Below, piece by piece: positions 1-23,959 of a stretch of DNA of 41,743 bases (the first letter of the stretch is position 1; each line of letters begins with the position of its first letter). The notes under the pieces are model-generated. The model was given only the letters and a program-made list of their open reading frames with translations, did no database searches and had not been told where the DNA came from. The stretch is from positions 1 to 41,743 of the forward strand of contig CASFCG010000008.1 of NCBI GenBank assembly GCA_949293295.1. Reading direction: 5' to 3'. A program made the position numbers and the translations under genes. The DNA is from an uncultured Cetobacterium sp. GTDB lineage: Bacteria > Fusobacteriota > Fusobacteriia > Fusobacteriales > Fusobacteriaceae.

Positions 1-3000
1 CCTACTCCTATTGTCGCTCTATTTATCTGTTTTCTATCCACAGAGCCAAATCCAAATTCTGCGCTTCCCTGCATATCAGTTTCACTCTCCTCTTTTCTGC
101 TTCCTGAGATATTTGTATTTAATGATAGATTTACTCCTCTCTCATAATCCTCAATATCCCTATAGTGCAATGTTTGAGTTGTCAACGTTGTATCTTTTCC
201 ACCTAACACAGCACCAATAAGATTAGTTTTTTCTTTAACAGTAATATCATTTTTTTCTTTCCCTATGATTGAACTTTGTTCTGTTACCCATTTTTTATCA
301 ACTCTATTTCTATTTGCCCCTATTCCACTCGAAGCATTATTATCAAAATTCGAAGCTATATTTAAGTTGATACCCTTATCTAAACTATATGAACTATCTT
401 GTAAACTTTCCAAATGAAGATTTGAAACATTAACTTTTACAGTTTCTCCAACTATATTTCCACCTTTTACGATAAAATCTTTTCCAGAGATATCTATATT
501 TTTTCCGGCATAAAATTTAGAATTTTCATTAGTTTCACTATTATTTCTTCCTTTTCCTGTGGCTATTGTGCCTGAAATTTGTGCAGTTACTACGTTTATT
601 TGTCCACTTAATGAGTCAGAAGAATAGTTACTTTTTGCATTATTTTTTCCAGCAGTTATAGATATATCCTTTCCAGAGTTAATATTTAGGTTATTTTCAG
701 CCAAAATCTCCGCTCCAGTAAAGTTGATATCTCCTTTATTAGTCTTCAAATTTAAATTATTTTTAGAAGTTATATTGGTTTTAATAGTTGTTGTAGCTTC
801 ACTATTGGATTTATCTTGTGAAAGTGAGAATCCAGCATGAATTCCAGCATTAACACCGCCATCAGCCGGACCATTAAGTAGTGTATCGATTGCATTTAAT
901 GATTTCTCATTTCCTTCAAGTGCTGCTTCTAAACTTTTTCCCTCAATTATTTTTTGAGGAATAATAAGAGCTTTTGGAAGATGCTTAATGGACTCCAACA
1001 TTTTTACGACAGAGGATAGGGTATCTTTGACACCGTTGAGATTTATAGCTACAGAGAGTTTTGCCTCTCCTTTTTCATTTTTACTAGTAGTTTTATGAAG
1101 TTCATCACGACTAGAAATATTTAATTCATTTTCAGCACCAATATCTGTATTTTGAGCGTTAATAGTGCTCGCTTCAATATTTACATTCTTTCCAGATGAA
1201 ATATTGATATTATTTTGGGCAGTAATCTCACTTTCTACAACTTTTGTATCGGATGAACTATTTTCACTCTTCGATGTTTTTAGTTTTATTCCAGCTTCGA
1301 AATTAAAGTCATTACTATTAAAAAATAGAGTGGCTTTACTTTTAGCACGTATTTTTTCCTCTTTAGTGATATCATCTCCAGCTAAAATATTTACGTTTTC
1401 TTTTGCTGAAATGGCAATCTCATTCCCAGAATCAATCTTAGAAGCTATCAACGCAATATTTTTATTGGCATTAAGATTAACTTTTTCTTCAGCGCTAACT
1501 AAAGAAGCGATATTTTTAGAATTAGATAATCTATCTCCGTTAAATTTTCCAGATAAACCGCCAAATCTACTTTTTTTAGTTTGATGGGCTGTGTTACTTT
1601 CTTCAAGAATTGAAGATATAAGTAGATTTTCGCCAACATCAAGGTCAATAATTTTTTCACTGATAACATTACTTCCCACAATATTCATGTTTTTTCCAGT
1701 TTCTATTTTTAAGTTATCCCCTGATATAAAATTGCTTGAATTTACGCTTTCTTCATATTTTGTATTCTTACTTTTTTTACTTTTATACCATTTACGTGAA
1801 CTATTATTCTGTTCAAAACTTCTACTATCAACAGAGGCTACTATATTAACGTTTTCTCCTGCTTTAGCTTTTAACTCTTTCTCTGCTATCACGTTGGAAC
1901 CAATAACAGATATATTTTTCCCAGTCTCAAGAGAGATATTCTCTCCTAATAGCACTCCACCTATATTTTCAATAGTCTCAGTAACGCTATAGTTATTAAA
2001 TCCACCCTCTCTGTTTCTAGTAACTCTCTTTATAGTTTGAAGTGATATATCATTTTCAGCTTCAACTTTCAAATCTTTAGTTGCAATTAACTTTGCACCA
2101 CTGTTAATAAAGCTATCTCCAGCAGAGATACTCACATTTTCTCCGCTCAGATTTCCAACACCTAAAATCTCTGTGCCTATATTTTGGTAGTTATTTCTAT
2201 TTACATAAACCTTTGTTTCATTCAAAATACTACCTTTTTCACTATCCAAGTGAAGAGTTTTATCAGCGCTAATATTTCCACCTCTGTTTAATATACCATT
2301 CTTGGAAGAGATTTTAATATTCTCTCCAGTTATAGTGGCTAAACCATTATCTCGTATAGTTTCATTTAATAGAGCATCAACAGTTAAAGTTAAATCTTTT
2401 CTACCCAAGATATTTCCGGTGTTATTGACAGTGATTGCGTTAATATTTAGCGTATTTCCAGAGAGTTGATTATTATCTATTTTGTTTAATGAAGCGAGAG
2501 TTTCTTTTGAGAGATAAACTTTTGGAACAAGTGTTTTTATACCGTTTATCTCCTCTTCAACATACCAAATAATATCGCTTTTTAGGTTATCAATCTGTTC
2601 TTTTGTAAGTGCGATACCAACTGATAGATTCAAATCTTTCATTGCCTCCACTGAGTTATTAAAAAGTGTTTCCATCTGTTGTTTCTCAGTTGTTGTATTA
2701 TTTAGATATCTTTTTCCTGTGGCTTCAAATATCGCTTTATTAACAACCATGTTTTCATAGAAAGAATCTCCTAAAACTCGAACATCTGTTTCAGGATTAA
2801 AATTTATTCTATTAAAAAAGTATTCTGAACCAAGATAATGCCCTTTATCAATAAAGTTGATATTTGTTTCTATGAGATAACCAAATTTTGGATTCTTTTT
2901 TCTTACTATTTGAGACAGATTTTGCTTTTCAATAGTGTTTATCTCTTCATTTATCTTGAAAAGTCCCTTATCCCCTTTTGGAAGCTCGATATACTCTTCA

Positions 3001-6000
3001 ATCTTGATAACTCCATCTTTTTTAAGGTCATTTTTGTTGTTGAATATGATATTGTTAGTTATACCCTCTCTTTTATTGATAGCAACAGTTCCAGTTGTAT
3101 ATACACCATTCCCCACTTTAGAAGCCTCTATATTTAGATTTTCTCCAGCTGTAATATTGGTAGTCTTGTCAGAAAATAATCTCTGTTTTGCTGTTGCCGT
3201 TGTACTTACCTTTGAATATCTTGCAGCCCCCCATCTTGTTCTATGCCTGTAGTTTCGTGCGAAAGTCAATGTAACATCTATATCTTTAAAAGCTCTATCA
3301 TTTTCTAAACTATTTGCTTTAATATTGATATCTTTGTTAGCGATAATGTTCCCCTCCCTATTCAGGATATTTATAGCCTCAAGATTGATATTCCCAGCTG
3401 ATTTTATATTTGCCATATTCGCTGTAAGATTGCTCATTCCCTCCTCAGCGGTCGCGAGATATCTTTCACCTCGCCATCGTTTTCTATGGTCGTTTGACGC
3501 GCTGAAAAGTCTTTGTAATTCTCTATCTATAGCTGGAAGATTAAGTTTTGAAATATCCACACTACTTTGGGAACCTGGAACAACCTTTTTAGTGTAGTCT
3601 CCTTGTAACTCTCCAATATTTTGAATATTGTTTGCTTTTATAGAGATATCATTCAAGGCTTCAATTGTTCCAGCGATATTTTTAACGTTTTTTCCAACTT
3701 GTAGAATCATATTTTTTCCCGAATAAATCTCAGCTTTGTTGTTTAAAATATCCTTTTTAGATATTAATCTCATATCTCCGCCAGAGAAGATTAAAGCTCC
3801 CTCATTATTTCTAATATTGGTATCGGATTCAACTTTTAAATCTTTTGCAACAGCTAGTTGTCCACTGTTTTCTAGATTTTTTGAAGCAATATCTAAACTA
3901 TCATTTGAGATTAAAAAACCTTGATTTTGTATTTTATTTGCAGTTAAATTACTTTTCCCGCTACCAAAAATCATCTCGCCTAGATTCTTCAAAAAACCTT
4001 TAAGAGAGATATTAGTAATTCCTACACTACCTATAGTTCCGTGAGTTTCAAGATTTGTTGCGCTGACAGAGAGATTTCCTCTAGAGACAAAACGATTTTT
4101 ATTAGAAAAATCTCCTGTCAACTCTATATTTATATCTCCAGTATTCTCGAAATCGTTTTCGGAATTTAGATTCAGTGCTCTAATATTAAATGCTCTATTT
4201 CCGAAATATTTTCCCTCATCAAGGTTCAAATCACTGTTGATAGAAAGATTGAAAACTCCTTGCGTTCCCAATTCACCATCAGTATTTTTAATACTATCAG
4301 CATTGATTTTCAAAGCTAAACCATTATTGAAAGCTTTTATAGTTCCAAAACTATTGTTTAACTCCCCTTTATTTAAAATTTCAATCTTCTCTCCGTGAAT
4401 AACTCCACTGTTTTTATTTAAGTTCTCGAAAAATAAACTTCCGTCAGCTAATATTTTGCCAGTTGTTTCAACATTATTTAATCTCATATCCCCTTTAGCT
4501 AACAACTCTCCACTATTTTTTAGAGATTTTTCGATTGAGATATCTCCTAGCGCGGATATATTCTTGTTATTTATGACATTTTGAGCGTTAATATCTGTTT
4601 TAGATAGCAAAGTTCCAAAATTCTCAACATCTTTTAATTTTAAACTACCACCTTGTATGAGCGCTTCATTTGTTATGAAATCAACTTCAAAAACTATGTT
4701 TTTCTCAGAAAGTATACTCCCTCTATTTAAAAATTTTGGTGAAAAAATCAAAAGATTTTTACTAGAAAGTAGTTCCCCTTGATTTAAGATATCGCTGGAA
4801 TTTATGCTCATTTCTCCTAAACTTTGTAACAGTTTACTATTCTTAAAACCATTAATAGCGTTGAAATTGGCTCTGTTTTGTGCATATATCTCGCCCTTAT
4901 TTTCAAAGTTCAAACCACTAAAATTAAAGGATTCACTTGCTATATCGCCACTATTTAGAAAGTTTGTTCCTTTTATCTCTATTAAACCTGAAGAAAGAGT
5001 TTTTTTATTGATTATATCTTTTCCCTCTAAAAAAAGTGTTAGTCCAGATGCGAAAATACTATTGTTTAGCAATTCGCCTTTTATGCTAAGATTTGAGAGT
5101 GCTGAAATTTTACCAGTATTTTCTACTTTTCCAATCAAATTAATTTTATTTGCATAGATATCCCCTCTATTGTATAAATTTCCCTTTAAAAAGAGTTTTT
5201 CTTGTGATTTTATAGCACCACTATTGTCTAAATTTGAAACAATCGTTAAAGAGGTTTCACCATAGATATTACCAGTATTAACGGTATTATCATTCTTTAT
5301 GTCAGTCAGAGTTCCAAGCAAACCTCCTGTATTTTCTAACTCTTTTGAATTAAGAGATAAGGAGTTATCTCCTTGTATTTTTCCGCTATTTTTTATTTTA
5401 TCAGAGTTTATAGAGAGTTTTTTAGAAGCGATTGTCTTTTGATTATCCAATGTTGTGGATGAAATCTGTATGTTGTTATTAGAAAGAATCTCCTCTTGAT
5501 TCTTAAGTTTTTTAGTTTTGAAATTAATATTATTTTCAGCACTAATCCCTTTTTTTATAGTGAGATTTTTAGAATTGACATTGATATTTTGTTTAGCTTG
5601 AGCAGTTTTTAAAACAATATCACCATCAACATCTAATTCTAAATCTGAAATATCAGCAAGAAACTCCCCTTGACTGTTAACACCAACCCCTTTTTCAGTA
5701 CTTTGTAAAAAAATCCTACCTGCATAAATGGAACCAAGATTTTTCCCATCCAGTGCCAGTGTAGGTTTTTTAGTATCAGTATTCTTTTTTTCTACATCCT
5801 TAGTAAAATAGTTGTATCTATTTTGTCCTAAAATTAGATTAACATCATTTCCAACATAAATAGCGCCTGACAACTCAGCCGTTCTAGAGATAATGTCAAA
5901 CATAGAAACTGTTCTTGCGTCAACCCCTAATTCACCAATAACTATATTTCCATTATCCACGTCAAAACCAGAAAACTTTCCAAACTCATTAAAAAAGGGT

Positions 6001-6467
6001 TTTCCAGTAGTTAAAGTAGCACGTTCAACATTGATAAAGCCAGCTCCATTGAGATAAATACCGTTAGGATTGGAAAGAATAAAATCAGCTTTTTTCCCAG
6101 TTATCTCAAGATACCCTAAAAGTTTACTTCCATTCAAGCCGGTAACCTCATTTAAAATTAAATTAGCTTCCTTACCATTAAATTGAAAATTAGGATTACC
6201 GTAGATTAATCCTCCGAGCTTAGAAGTAGAAAAATCTTTGGAGTTATTGAGAATAAGCCCATTTTTATCAATGTTAAATTCAGAAAAAAGATTGTGAGAA
6301 ACCCCATTTTTATTGGGAGAGTTTATATTGATAAAGTCAACTTTGGAGTTGGGAGCTCGGTCAATATTGAGTTGTTGTTTTTTACTATTATCAATAGAAA
6401 CTCCACGAGCAAGAAGAAAATTAGAGTAAAGAAAAAAGAAAGAAAAGAAAAAAAGATAAAAAAACAT
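1..6467 (-). CDS. CdiA/FhaB-like filamentous haemagglutinin exoprotein (TpsA), 5' part only
   Basis: A single open frame of 2155 codons begins at an ATG at 6467 (minus) and is still open at base 1, so only the N-terminal part is present. The start is preceded by an AGGGGGTGG Shine-Dalgarno and followed by a hydrophobic signal peptide of about 20 residues ending in LLA. Residues about 21-210 are a two-partner-secretion domain: GVSHNLFSEFNID, LNEVTGLNGSKLLGYLEITG and the NPNGIYLNG motif are visible. Then follow hundreds of residues of short beta-helix repeats of the type GKNINI/AENELNI. Near residues 1230-1320 are the CdiA/FhaB-type blocks LGDSFYENMVVNKAIFEATG and LTKEQIDNLKSDIIWYVEEE. The family is exported by Sec and a TpsB outer-membrane transporter and acts at the cell surface as an adhesin or contact-dependent inhibition stick. 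No TpsB/CdiB gene lies upstream here. The toxin or maturation end lies outside the window, so adhesin versus CDI toxin cannot be decided. Confidence 0.93.
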   Translation of the reverse strand, partial: MFFYLFFFSFFFLYSNFLLARGVSIDNSKKQQLNIDRAPNSKVDFININSPNKNGVSHNLFSEFNIDKNGLILNNSKDFSTSKLGGLIYGNPNFQFNGKEANLILNEVTGLNGSKLLGYLEITGKKADFILSNPNGIYLNGAGFINVERATLTTGKPFFNEFGKFSGFDVDNGNIVIGELGVDARTVSMFDIISRTAELSGAIYVGNDVNLILGQNRYNYFTKDVEKKNTDTKKPTLALDGKNLGSIYAGRIFLQSTEKGVGVNSQGEFLADISDLELDVDGDIVLKTAQAKQNINVNSKNLTIKKGISAENNINFKTKKLKNQEEILSNNNIQISSTTLDNQKTIASKKLSINSDKIKNSGKIQGDNSLSLNSKELENTGGLLGTLTDIKNDNTVNTGNIYGETSLTIVSNLDNSGAIKSQEKLFLKGNLYNRGDIYANKINLIGKVENTGKISALSNLSIKGELLNNSIFASGLTLFLEGKDIINKKTLSSGLIEIKGTNFLNSGDIASESFNFSGLNFENKGEIYAQNRANFNAINGFKNSKLLQSLGEMSINSSDILNQGELLSSKNLLIFSPKFLNRGSILSEKNIVFEVDFITNEALIQGGSLKLKDVENFGTLLSKTDINAQNVINNKNISALGDISIEKSLKNSGELLAKGDMRLNNVETTGKILADGSLFFENLNKNSGVIHGEKIEILNKGELNNSFGTIKAFNNGLALKINADSIKNTDGELGTQGVFNLSINSDLNLDEGKYFGNRAFNIRALNLNSENDFENTGDINIELTGDFSNKNRFVSRGNLSVSATNLETHGTIGSVGITNISLKGFLKNLGEMIFGSGKSNLTANKIQNQGFLISNDSLDIASKNLENSGQLAVAKDLKVESDTNIRNNEGALIFSGGDMRLISKKDILNNKAEIYSGKNMILQVGKNVKNIAGTIEALNDISIKANNIQNIGELQGDYTKKVVPGSQSSVDISKLNLPAIDRELQRLFSASNDHRKRWRGERYLATAEEGMSNLTANMANIKSAGNINLEAINILNREGNIIANKDINIKANSLENDRAFKDIDVTLTFARNYRHRTRWGAARYSKVSTTATAKQRLFSDKTTNITAGENLNIEASKVGNGVYTTGTVAINKREGITNNIIFNNKNDLKKDGVIKIEEYIELPKGDKGLFKINEEINTIEKQNLSQIVRKKNPKFGYLIETNINFIDKGHYLGSEYFFNRINFNPETDVRVLGDSFYENMVVNKAIFEATGKRYLNNTTTEKQQMETLFNNSVEAMKDLNLSVGIALTKEQIDNLKSDIIWYVEEEINGIKTLVPKVYLSKETLASLNKIDNNQLSGNTLNINAITVNNTGNILGRKDLTLTVDALLNETIRDNGLATITGENIKISSKNGILNRGGNISADKTLHLDSEKGSILNETKVYVNRNNYQNIGTEILGVGNLSGENVSISAGDSFINSGAKLIATKDLKVEAENDISLQTIKRVTRNREGGFNNYSVTETIENIGGVLLGENISLETGKNISVIGSNVIAEKELKAKAGENVNIVASVDSRSFEQNNSSRKWYKSKKSKNTKYEESVNSSNFISGDNLKIETGKNMNIVGSNVISEKIIDLDVGENLLISSILEESNTAHQTKKSRFGGLSGKFNGDRLSNSKNIASLVSAEEKVNLNANKNIALIASKIDSGNEIAISAKENVNILAGDDITKEEKIRAKSKATLFFNSNDFNFEAGIKLKTSKSENSSSDTKVVESEITAQNNINISSGKNVNIEASTINAQNTDIGAENELNISSRDELHKTTSKNEKGEAKLSVAINLNGVKDTLSSVVKMLESIKHLPKALIIPQKIIEGKSLEAALEGNEKSLNAIDTLLNGPADGGVNAGIHAGFSLSQDKSNSEATTTIKTNITSKNNLNLKTNKGDINFTGAEILAENNLNINSGKDISITAGKNNAKSNYSSDSLSGQINVVTAQISGTIATGKGRNNSETNENSKFYAGKNIDISGKDFIVKGGNIVGETVKVNVSNLHLESLQDSSYSLDKGINLNIASNFDNNASSGIGANRNRVDKKWVTEQSSIIGKEKNDITVKEKTNLIGAVLGGKDTTLTTQTLHYRDIEDYERGVNLSLNTNISGSRKEESETDMQGSAEFGFGSVDRKQINRATIGV

Positions 6468-6540
6468 AAACCACCCCCTAAAAAACGAAAAAAGTGTATT
6501 AAAAAAGTACTTAAAATACAAAATAAATAGACGATATTTA

Positions 6541-21130: not shown

Positions 21131-21225
21131 CTAGGACAAGGCTTATAATAATTATTTTATATCTATATTAGATAGAGTATAAGTGGTGAGGGAGTAAAAG
21201 AGGTTAGGCGGAAAAGGTGAAGACT

Positions 21226-21786
21226 ATGGGAAAAGTCATATATATAACTGGTGGAGCTGGAAGTGGAAAAAGTGAGTTTGCTGAGAGATTATTGTCTGAT
21301 TCAAAGAAAAAAATATATATCGCTACTTCGGTTATATTTGATGATGAGATAAGAGAAAAGGTTTCAGAACACCAAAAGAGAAGAGATGGCGAGTGGATAT
21401 TGATTGAGAGATATAAAGATATAGTTTTGGAACTTGAAAAATATAAGAGACAGGGATTTAAGATTTTATTGGAGTGTTTGACAAATTTAGTGAGCAACTA
21501 TATGCTTTTTGAGAGTAGCTTTGATTGGGAAAAAAAAGTATCTAAGACGGAATTAAAAAGCTTGGAGAGTACTATAATTTATCAGATTGAGGGATTAATT
21601 CAATTTGTGAGGGAAAATGGTTTTGAGTTGGTTATTGTATCTAATGAGATTGGAATGGGATTAGTTCCTACATATCCATTAGGAAGATATTTTAGAGATA
21701 TATCTGGAAAAATAAATCAGTATATTGCTTCTAGAGCAGATGAGGCATATTTGATAGTTTCTGGATTAGATTTAAGATTAAAATAA
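21226..21786 (+). CDS. cobU: Adenosylcobinamide kinase / adenosylcobinamide-phosphate guanylyltransferase
   Basis: A 186-residue bifunctional enzyme that phosphorylates adenosylcobinamide and then attaches GMP, making adenosylcobinamide-GDP for the cobalamin nucleotide loop. The P-loop is G9-G-A-G-S-G-K-S16. H49 (SEHQKRRDGEW) matches the guanylylated histidine position. LECLTNLVSNY and VSNEIGMGLVPTYPLGRYFRD are diagnostic of CobU. Start: ATG at 21226 with AGGTGA upstream; a GTG at 21217 overlaps that ribosome site. First gene of the cob operon, followed by cobS after 24 bases. Confidence 0.96.
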   Translation: MGKVIYITGGAGSGKSEFAERLLSDSKKKIYIATSVIFDDEIREKVSEHQKRRDGEWILIERYKDIVLELEKYKRQGFKILLECLTNLVSNYMLFESSFDWEKKVSKTELKSLESTIIYQIEGLIQFVRENGFELVIVSNEIGMGLVPTYPLGRYFRDISGKINQYIASRADEAYLIVSGLDLRLK

Positions 21787-21810: not shown

Positions 21811-22590
21811 ATGAAGGAGTTAAAAAGCCTTTATTTATTATTAGGATTTATGACGAGATTACCGCTACCGAAATTAAAACAGTTTGATTCAAATCTTTTA
21901 GGAAGAGGGATGAAGTGGTTCCCAGTTGTTGGAGCTACAATAGGTGTAATAAATTATGTAGTACTTAAGTGTTTGGAGATGTTAAAATTTTCAACATTGA
22001 TGTTAGCTATATCTGCTGTGATTCTAAATGTAATTTTGACTGGAGCTTTGCATTTGGATGGATTAGCAGATACTTTTGATGGAATTTTTAGTTATAGAAG
22101 TAAACAAAAGATGTTAGAAATAATGAAAGATTCGAGAGTCGGAACTAATGGAGCGATAGCTTTGATACTTTATTTTATTATAAAAATAGCTCTTATAAGT
22201 GAAATATCCATCAAATATAAGATGGATATATCAGATTTAATGCTTGTTCTTCCAATTATTGAAAGAGTGAGTGGGGTGTTTAATTGTTTTCTAGAGCCAT
22301 ATGCAAGACCGGTGGGATTAGGAAAAACTTTTGTTGACAATACAAAATGGAAATCTTTTGTATTTTCGTATATTATTTCGATAATACTATTGTTCTTCAT
22401 TTCACGGTTGCGTATAGTTGGTTTTAGGTCTATTTTCTTCATAGAAAATATGGTGGTTTTCTTTGGAGCATATTTTGGAAAGTTAGTTACAAAGAAGATA
22501 GGAGGAATAACAGGAGATACTTTGGGAGCAGTCTTAGAGCTTTCATCTGTTTTTGCTCTGTTTTTGATATATGTTTTATATAGCATGTAG
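21811..22590 (+). CDS. cobS: Adenosylcobinamide-GDP ribazoletransferase (cobalamin synthase)
   Basis: A 259-residue polytopic membrane enzyme that joins adenosylcobinamide-GDP to alpha-ribazole (phosphate), the last joining step of cobalamin synthesis. LLGFMTRLPLPKLKQFDSNLLGRGMKWFPVVGATIG and the metal-binding LHLDGLADTFDGIFS are conserved, as is MKDSRVGTNGAIALIL. Several hydrophobic helices follow to the C-terminus, with GGITGDTLGA. The ATG is preceded by AGGAGAG. It acts after CobU and CobT, both in this operon. Confidence 0.96.
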   Translation: MKELKSLYLLLGFMTRLPLPKLKQFDSNLLGRGMKWFPVVGATIGVINYVVLKCLEMLKFSTLMLAISAVILNVILTGALHLDGLADTFDGIFSYRSKQKMLEIMKDSRVGTNGAIALILYFIIKIALISEISIKYKMDISDLMLVLPIIERVSGVFNCFLEPYARPVGLGKTFVDNTKWKSFVFSYIISIILLFFISRLRIVGFRSIFFIENMVVFFGAYFGKLVTKKIGGITGDTLGAVLELSSVFALFLIYVLYSM

Positions 22591-22611
22591 TTATAAAGAC
22601 GGAGATTTTTT

Positions 22612-22882
22612 GTGAGATATGGAGAGTTTGAGCTGAATAATATAATAAGGAAGTTTATTTTTGAAGATTAGACTCAGATTTAATCGAAGTGGGAATAATA
22701 TGAGCAGAAAAGAGTCATAGAGTTTGTCGAAAGAATAAAACAAGTGTATATGGTGGTTACTCATCGGGGAGTGATAGGTGCGATATTAAGTTTTTATCTT
22801 TCAGGCATTTAAACTCTTATTGAGAATTTAATGTAAAAACGGTGGAATAGTGATGATTGAATTTATAAATTCCCAATATTGA
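22612..22882 (+). pseudogene. cobC: Decayed cobC (alpha-ribazole phosphatase, histidine phosphatase family)
   Basis: Between cobS and cobT three stretches match a histidine phosphatase but no intact frame exists. FVRYGEFELN (from 22612) corresponds to the N-terminal LVRHGETELN, with the catalytic His turned to Tyr. KRVIEFVERIKQVYMVVTHRGVIGAILSFYLSG (22699-22809) carries the second catalytic His region THGGVIRAIL. NGGIVMIEF (22838-22864) is the usual C-terminal strand, in another frame. In-frame stops lie at 22669, 22681 and 22696, with another at 22810, and the middle third is missing (about 270 bases remain of about 600). The position in a cob operon supports cobC. Without it, dephosphorylation of cobalamin-phosphate or alpha-ribazole-phosphate would need another phosphatase. 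Confidence 0.8.
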
Positions 22883-22909
22883 AAGGATTAAACATAGGAG
22901 AGTAACCTT

Positions 22910-23959
22910 ATGAAGAGATTAGAGGAGATTCTAAGAGATATAGAAGCTGTTGATGAAGTAGCCAAGAGACAATGCGAAGAGATATTGAATTCTAAAATGA
23001 AGCCAAAAGGGAGTTTAGGTGTTTTAGAAAAATTGGCAATCAAAGTTGCAGGAATAAAGAGAATGCCATTAAATGAATTGAAAGATGGTTTACATATAGT
23101 TGTTGCTGGTGATAATGGAGTGGTAGAAGAGGAAATCTCTCCGTGTCCGATGGAGTATACAAGAATAGTATCAGAGGAGATATTGAGTTCGCTGGCTGGT
23201 ATAGGTGTTCTTTGTAAGAGCTTAAATATCCCCTTGAAGCTTATAGATGTTGGAATAGATGGAGATATAAAAAGAGAGTATGAAAATTTGGAGCGAAAAA
23301 AGATTGCCTATGGAACAAAAAATTTTTTGAAAGAACCAGCTTTGACAGAAGAGCAAGTTTTAAAAGCGATTATGTTGGGAATTGATGTAGTTTTAGAGAA
23401 TGATAGATTTGACTTCTTTTCAATTGGAGAGATGGGAATTGGAAATACAACGACGAGCTCGGCGATTTTGTATGCTTTGACAAGGAAAAGTATAGATTTA
23501 GTTGTAGGTTACGGAAGTGGCATCAATGATGAGGGATTAAAAAGAAAAAAACAAGTTGTAAAAGAGGTTTGCGAGAAATATAATCTTTTTGACAAAAAGC
23601 CGATTGAAGTTTTAAGAGTTATAGGTGGGTTTGATATTGCTACTATGGTCGGAATTTGTATAGGAGCATCATTGTGTAAAAAAATAGTTTTGTTGGATGG
23701 ATTCATATCGGTGGTTGCGGCATTGGTAGCGGTGAGAATAGAACCTAAGATAAAGGATTATCTGATTGCCACTCATATGAGTGAGGAGAAAGGAATGAGA
23801 GTAGCACTAGATGAGTTGGGATATGAACCATTTCTGAATTTAAAGATGAGATTGGGAGAAGGAACAGGAGCAGTGCTAGCCTATCCAATATTGAAATCAG
23901 CTGTTGAGATACCTAAAGCCATGAAAACTAAAGAGGAGATATACGCTCTATTCAAGTAA
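22910..23959 (+). CDS. cobT: Nicotinate-nucleotide--dimethylbenzimidazole phosphoribosyltransferase
   Basis: A 349-residue enzyme that activates the lower-ligand base (such as dimethylbenzimidazole) with nicotinate mononucleotide to alpha-ribazole phosphate. KMKPKGSLGVLEKLA, VAGDNGVVEEEISPCP, GEMGIGNTTTSSAI and the catalytic glutamate E317 in GEGTGA are present. The usual GDHGV reads GDNGV here. The ATG follows AGGAGAGTAACC. It follows the cobC relic in the operon and is directly followed by radC, whose start lies 16 bases after its stop. Confidence 0.96.
   Translation: MKRLEEILRDIEAVDEVAKRQCEEILNSKMKPKGSLGVLEKLAIKVAGIKRMPLNELKDGLHIVVAGDNGVVEEEISPCPMEYTRIVSEEILSSLAGIGVLCKSLNIPLKLIDVGIDGDIKREYENLERKKIAYGTKNFLKEPALTEEQVLKAIMLGIDVVLENDRFDFFSIGEMGIGNTTTSSAILYALTRKSIDLVVGYGSGINDEGLKRKKQVVKEVCEKYNLFDKKPIEVLRVIGGFDIATMVGICIGASLCKKIVLLDGFISVVAALVAVRIEPKIKDYLIATHMSEEKGMRVALDELGYEPFLNLKMRLGEGTGAVLAYPILKSAVEIPKAMKTKEEIYALFK

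Follow-up and report, generated by a model that had tools for sequence, protein, structure and literature searches.

The stretch of DNA analysed here (hereafter the window, 41,743 nucleotides) comes from contig C8 in the metagenome-assembled genome of an uncultured Cetobacterium sp. (G000; 1,175,016 bases in 26 contigs, completeness 82.76%, contamination 0.4%), whose 1.18 Mb compare with 1.7–3.1 Mb for the nearest genomes, all of one genus. Its plus strand carries cobU (positions 21217–21786; adenosylcobinamide kinase/guanylyltransferase; PF02283, E 1.6e-50; NF004469, 175.1 bits, cut-off 161), cobS (21811–22590; adenosylcobinamide-GDP ribazoletransferase; PF02654, E 1.2e-54; TIGR00317, 142.1 bits, cut-off 110) and cobT (22910–23959; DMB phosphoribosyltransferase; PF02277, E 1.7e-111; TIGR03160, 373.1 bits, cut-off 319.3), and these Pfam and NCBIfam matches bear out an earlier reading of the sequence alone, according to which all three genes are intact. 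The spacer between cobS and cobT measures 319 nt. Its longest open stretch comprises 39 codons, and it holds no open frame of about 190–200 amino acids with a start codon, the CobC proteins of congeners being 191–202 amino acids long. A scan of the spacer revealed no terminator-like site, and promoter-like sites were not more frequent in it than in shuffles. The motif AGGAG at 22896–22900 on the plus strand, within the old end of cobC, is the likely ribosome-binding site of cobT, as congeners carry a counterpart, ATAGGGGG, at the same place, and the tail of the former gene may still act in this role. At the beginning of the window (1–6470, minus strand), a repetitive reading frame of great length, which by eye appears filamentous adhesin-like, runs off the contig end.

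The spacer contains what is left of cobC, the gene of a histidine phosphatase of the alpha-ribazole/adenosylcobalamin-5'-phosphate phosphatase family. This remnant, recognised by profile alignment and synteny, spans positions 22609–22899 of the plus strand and is non-functional. Five blocks of it persist on this strand in the same order as in intact CobC, all of them recovered by profile alignment. Block 1 (22609–22635, FVRYGEFEL) is what persists of the catalytic RHGE motif, its His changed to Tyr, and block 2 (22647–22682, KEVYF*RLDSDL) follows in a shifted frame with a stop at 22662. After a deletion scar (22683–22705), where comparison with congeners leaves a few nucleotides here as opposed to about 276 nt between the matching points, block 3 (22705–22803, QKRVIEFVERIKQVYMVVTHRGVIGAILSFYLS) covers the region of the C-terminal catalytic His (VTHWG in relatives) before the frame breaks; block 4 (22838–22864, NGGIVMIEF) lies in another frame, and block 5 (22870–22899, FPILKGLNIG) is the old C terminus. 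The sequence-only reading had named FVRYGEFELN, VYMVVTHRGVIGAILSFYLS (at 22744) and NGGIVMIEF, the latter after a frameshift, and these fragments are indeed present where claimed; the blocks at 22647 and 22870 had escaped it.

When the spacer was aligned, with frame shifts allowed, to a profile built from 26 intact CobC sequences of relatives (L006 was left out of the profile, although it is intact at its locus), the score was 149.0 and the match covered profile positions 6–28 and 125–194. As controls, 60 dinucleotide shuffles gave a mean of 25.1 (sd 4.3, maximum 41.9) and 300 stretches of 319 nt, drawn at random from either strand of the window, a mean of 25.7 (sd 5.1, maximum 50.3). Searches by tblastn with single CobC proteins were weaker, with a best E of 1.2e-7 for the C-terminal part and E values of 0.09–0.7 for the N-terminal block. 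Alignment well above chance, together with synteny with intact cobC, hence establishes a pseudogene by descent and confirms the proposed relic between cobS and cobT.

With CobC (PF00300, TIGR03162), the relic shares the position between cobS and cobT, the blocks around RHGE and VTHWG, and the C-terminal tail. It differs, however, in that the start codon is gone (in the FVRYGE frame, a TAA at 22594 lies upstream with no start codon in between), the N-terminal catalytic His of the RHG motif is lost (RYGE for RHGE, as had been recognised), more than the middle third is deleted and the frame is broken near 22647, 22699, 22807, 22836 and 22865. The missing middle, likewise described before, amounts to about 275 nt, profile positions 29–124 being almost wholly absent (92 columns skipped), and the matching points that flank the deletion lie 276 nt apart in three congener loci (L003, L008 and L014). 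Since a CAGAAAAGA-like run is present at both edges of the deletion in congeners, slippage between short repeats is a plausible cause. Lost with the centre is the region of SDLKRA and NFGIFEG in congeners, which we take to be the carriers of the conserved central Arg and Glu of CobC. The second catalytic His is kept (VTHRG where relatives have VTHWG), which is insufficient without the rest of the enzyme. The three internal stops reported earlier depend on the frame that is chosen: two lie on the aligned path (22662 and 22821), and more are met in any single frame. With start, active-site His and centre all gone, a programmed frameshift or a split functional enzyme can be ruled out.

The relatives that were retrieved with CobS belong to Cetobacterium and Fusobacterium. 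Among 29 distinct loci with adjacent cobS and cobT, the window included, 27 have an intact cobC (191–202 residues) between the two genes, the exceptions being the window and L029. In this comparison, L012, L026, L030 and L031 were left out, one of the two genes being absent from the locus, and each genome was counted once (L033, L034, L035, L036, L038, L040 and L041 are genomes already represented by other loci). In L016, cobS is absent from its own locus, but the locus shares a contig with L035; here, tblastn splits cobT of Cetobacterium sp. UBA6069 in two, as it does with cobU of a Fusobacterium MAG (L039), and in both cases an assembly gap or a damaged gene is possible. L029 (G028), a distant family member from another genus, has a cobS–cobT spacer of 243 nt without cobC and without a recognisable open frame of more than 51 codons, possibly an independent loss. 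A conserved non-coding element is ruled out by the relatives, which carry the intact gene at the same place; neither this nor a read error that would restore one full-length frame, the two findings that would have spoken against a relic, was encountered.

All 11 congeners (the Cetobacterium genomes, 12 counting that of the window) have an intact cobC at the cob locus, which shows that the gene died on the lineage of the window after its split from all sampled congeners. Over the 70 codons of the relic that were aligned, the three codon positions are identical to those of eight congeners at rates of 0.73/0.83/0.46, a pattern that resembles those of cobT (0.70–0.73/0.83–0.84/0.45–0.53) and cobS (0.63–0.67/0.76–0.79/0.42–0.46) and thus argues that most of the divergence arose while cobC still worked, although the codons were chosen for matching, which biases the test towards a young relic. 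As the remaining blocks are still coding-like, the loss would be recent relative to the split from the congeners. A literature search on a cobC relic in Cetobacterium found no paper, as judged by the listings.

If CobC is dead, the question arises which enzyme removes the last phosphate. From the loss, the sequence-only reading had concluded that another phosphatase must finish the molecule or that cobalamin phosphate is made. The search for an intact histidine phosphatase elsewhere in the genome returned one further PF00300 gene, G000:C24:3464-4090 (191 bits, cut-off 21.7), so that a candidate for the former option exists. Each of the 11 congeners has one PF00300 gene above cut-off at the cob locus and a second one elsewhere (G010 alone has a third), whereas the genome of the window has only the second. 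This leaves a newly gained replacement unsupported. G000:C24:3464-4090 adjoins kdsB, and since the same arrangement is found in G010, the second phosphatase is ancestral in the genus. The gene scores best as phosphoserine phosphatase 1 (149.7 bits, below the cut-off of that family) and reaches 129.8 bits against the TIGR03162 model of cobC, with a cut-off of 162.9; a genuine congener CobC (L008) also stays below that value with 149.0 bits, which deprives the cut-off of its discriminating power in this case. CobC of E. coli is reported to be promiscuous and to dephosphorylate FMN (PMC13389410), which shows such enzymes to be promiscuous. Another report describes the absence of cobC from further predicted producers, for which cblZ or cblXY have been put forward as alternatives (PMC8620254). 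One of these cobC-less predicted cobamide producers, Ca. Chlorobium antarcticum, resembles the present case in a late pathway that is present, an absent cobC and a proposed alternative phosphatase, but differs in that the gene is caught here as a relic in place, beside intact cobS and cobT, while every sampled congener retains an intact copy. From our point of view, G000:C24:3464-4090 is the likeliest candidate for a CobC stand-in.

The rest of the pathway shows no comparable damage. The cbi operon (C3:23012-35714; L054 5012-17714) contains, for every one of the 13 genes in the operon of G010 (cbiP, cbiB, cobD and cbiA, C, D, E, T, L, F, G, H and J, of which cbiE, T, L, F and H are presumably named correctly by gene order and methylase family), a full-length open counterpart, with identities to G010 of 48–77%, compared with 70% for radC and 65% for uvrA (part) among nearby housekeeping genes. 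A gene for a DUF5710 protein (264 aa; L054 14428-15222, on G000:C3) lies inside the operon between the positions of cbiF and cbiG and is absent from that of G010. Adding an intact cbiK (C6:7501-8430) and cobU, cobS and cobT brings the number of pathway genes without frame damage to at least 17, and with all of them open and full length, a near-complete de novo pathway is present. The path all the way to adenosylcobalamin is less secure, as no adenosyltransferase was recognised: PF02572 was found in none of the 12 genomes, and PF01923, matched in 7 of the 11 congeners, was not found in that of the window. As a marker of completeness, these families are uninformative, since several congeners also lack matches to both. 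G001, G003, G010 and G011 combine B12-binding proteins and a B12 pathway with the lack of any match to PF02572 or PF01923, and the genus Cetobacterium may use another adenosyltransferase. In the accessible text of PMC13249080, Cetobacterium strains are described as complete B12 producers. They share the genus and the retained pathway with our case, strain SF1 being characterised there as streamlined with few genes, whereas here cobC is broken and riboswitches and B12-binding proteins were not found; that text makes no mention of pseudogenes.

What does seem to have gone is the sensing and use of B12. No cobalamin riboswitch (RF00174) was found in the genome of the window, as against 3–7 in each of the 11 congeners. 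In 10 of the 11, one is located ahead of cbiP, some 1.8 kb upstream of where cbiB starts, and another precedes cbiK in all three congener loci examined (G009, G010 and G001). Neither the cbiP leader nor the cbiK leader yielded one here among matches up to E 10, and decayed copies ahead of the cbi operon and of cbiK are thereby ruled out. The B12-binding domain PF02310 was likewise not found in this 82.8% complete genome vs 3–5 copies in each of the 11 congeners, a count that holds even for one that is only 67% complete. Two PF02310 genes common to all 11 lie 44–59 kb apart (in the eight genomes with both on one contig), so that one assembly gap could hide both. Glutamate mutase genes, glmS and glmL, adjoin rimP-nusA in G002 and G004, and the recovered rimP-nusA-infB region of the present genome (C24, L079 3638-7736) is preceded by different genes and lacks glmS and glmL. 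EutB, present in 8 of the 11 congeners, was not found here; across all 12 genomes, neither the QueG domain nor an NrdJ above cut-off was detected. With a congener radical-SAM protein as query, tblastn against the DNA of the window's genome used in the congener comparison (351,889 of 1,175,016 bases, from 17 sampled stretches, the window and further DNA of the same genome) returned only matches of 21–28%, which we took as other radical-SAM proteins. A below-cut-off TIGR02504 match, probably a class I ribonucleotide reductase, occurs in 10 of the 11 congeners and is absent here; the anaerobic ribonucleotide reductase may suffice in this reduced genome, or the class I gene may lie in the missing part.

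Taken together, the window carries a dead cobC in a genome-reduced, Cetobacterium-like bacterium in which the rest of the pathway is intact, and we consider it probable that a stand-in phosphatase finishes the molecule and that the loss was tolerable without sensing or use of B12. As the other genes are intact, the anaerobic pathway most likely remains active as far as adenosylcobalamin-5'-phosphate and would still be under selection, and the last phosphate would most likely be removed by G000:C24:3464-4090 or another unspecific phosphatase. The loss would have been tolerable because B12 synthesis is no longer tuned to the need of the cell itself, as suggested by riboswitches and B12-dependent enzymes that are gone or were not found. 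On the simplest account, cobC would have become dispensable through an unspecific phosphatase that can do the step and through a weaker demand on this last step where B12 sensing and any evident B12 use are absent. The description of the locus as a snapshot of pathway erosion is not supported as it stands, since the remaining pathway shows neither frame damage nor excess divergence and the losses concern B12 sensing and use.

One could nevertheless imagine that general decay is just starting, with B12 no longer made or needed and cobC the first pathway gene to fall. Without B12 use, selection on the pathway should decrease, and the lack of any detected B12-binding protein, EutB or riboswitch and of glmS/glmL at rimP-nusA fits this account. 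Damage would then, however, be expected to be scattered over the larger target, whereas 17 other pathway genes are open and diverge like their housekeeping neighbours and cobC alone carries at least six lesions; we thus regard incipient decay as unlikely, if worth serious thought. That a cobC copy sits in an unrecovered part of the genome is conceivable at 82.8% completeness, but the only other recurring PF00300 gene in all 11 congeners is the second phosphatase, which was recovered here, and a moved or replaced cobC is accordingly improbable.

Similarly poor are the prospects of cobalamin-5'-phosphate, or its adenosyl form, being the end product that is released and then dephosphorylated by the host or community. 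In what is regarded as established pathway knowledge, reportedly going back to Zayas and Escalante-Semerena in 2007, the product of CobS is the phosphate form, and cobC is gone; against this stand the second histidine phosphatase, the promiscuity of such enzymes and the fact that no exporter or receiver was identified. Lastly, the source is a metagenome assembly, in which a read or assembly error might mimic a broken gene. Yet a stretch of 290 nt combines a lost start and active-site His with about 92 missing codons and several disrupted frames, whereas no lesion is seen in about 17 further genes of the pathway. With that many codons and the start absent, correcting one misread position would not bring the frame back. 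With so many independent lesions in so short a stretch, an error is ruled out for all practical purposes.

Beyond the probable stand-in for a dead cobC, one may speculate, tentatively and with considerable doubt, that the lineage is a B12 producer that neither uses nor senses B12, having lost its own B12 enzymes, its riboswitches and the finishing phosphatase while keeping an intact corrin pathway, now free of riboswitches and so possibly constitutive, that would serve a host or community. According to Shelton et al., B12 producers without users do not exist, and our literature search on such producers found nothing beyond that study. Judged by its gene content, the genome would be a candidate exception to this view, not a proven one. 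A broken cobC alone is ordinary gene loss; it is the setting that is unusual, with one broken step in a roughly 20-gene pathway that otherwise seems to be maintained, while the sensing and use of B12 seem to have been dropped. As such, this one organism makes two questions testable, namely which enzyme removes the last phosphate without CobC and whether B12 may be made only for others.
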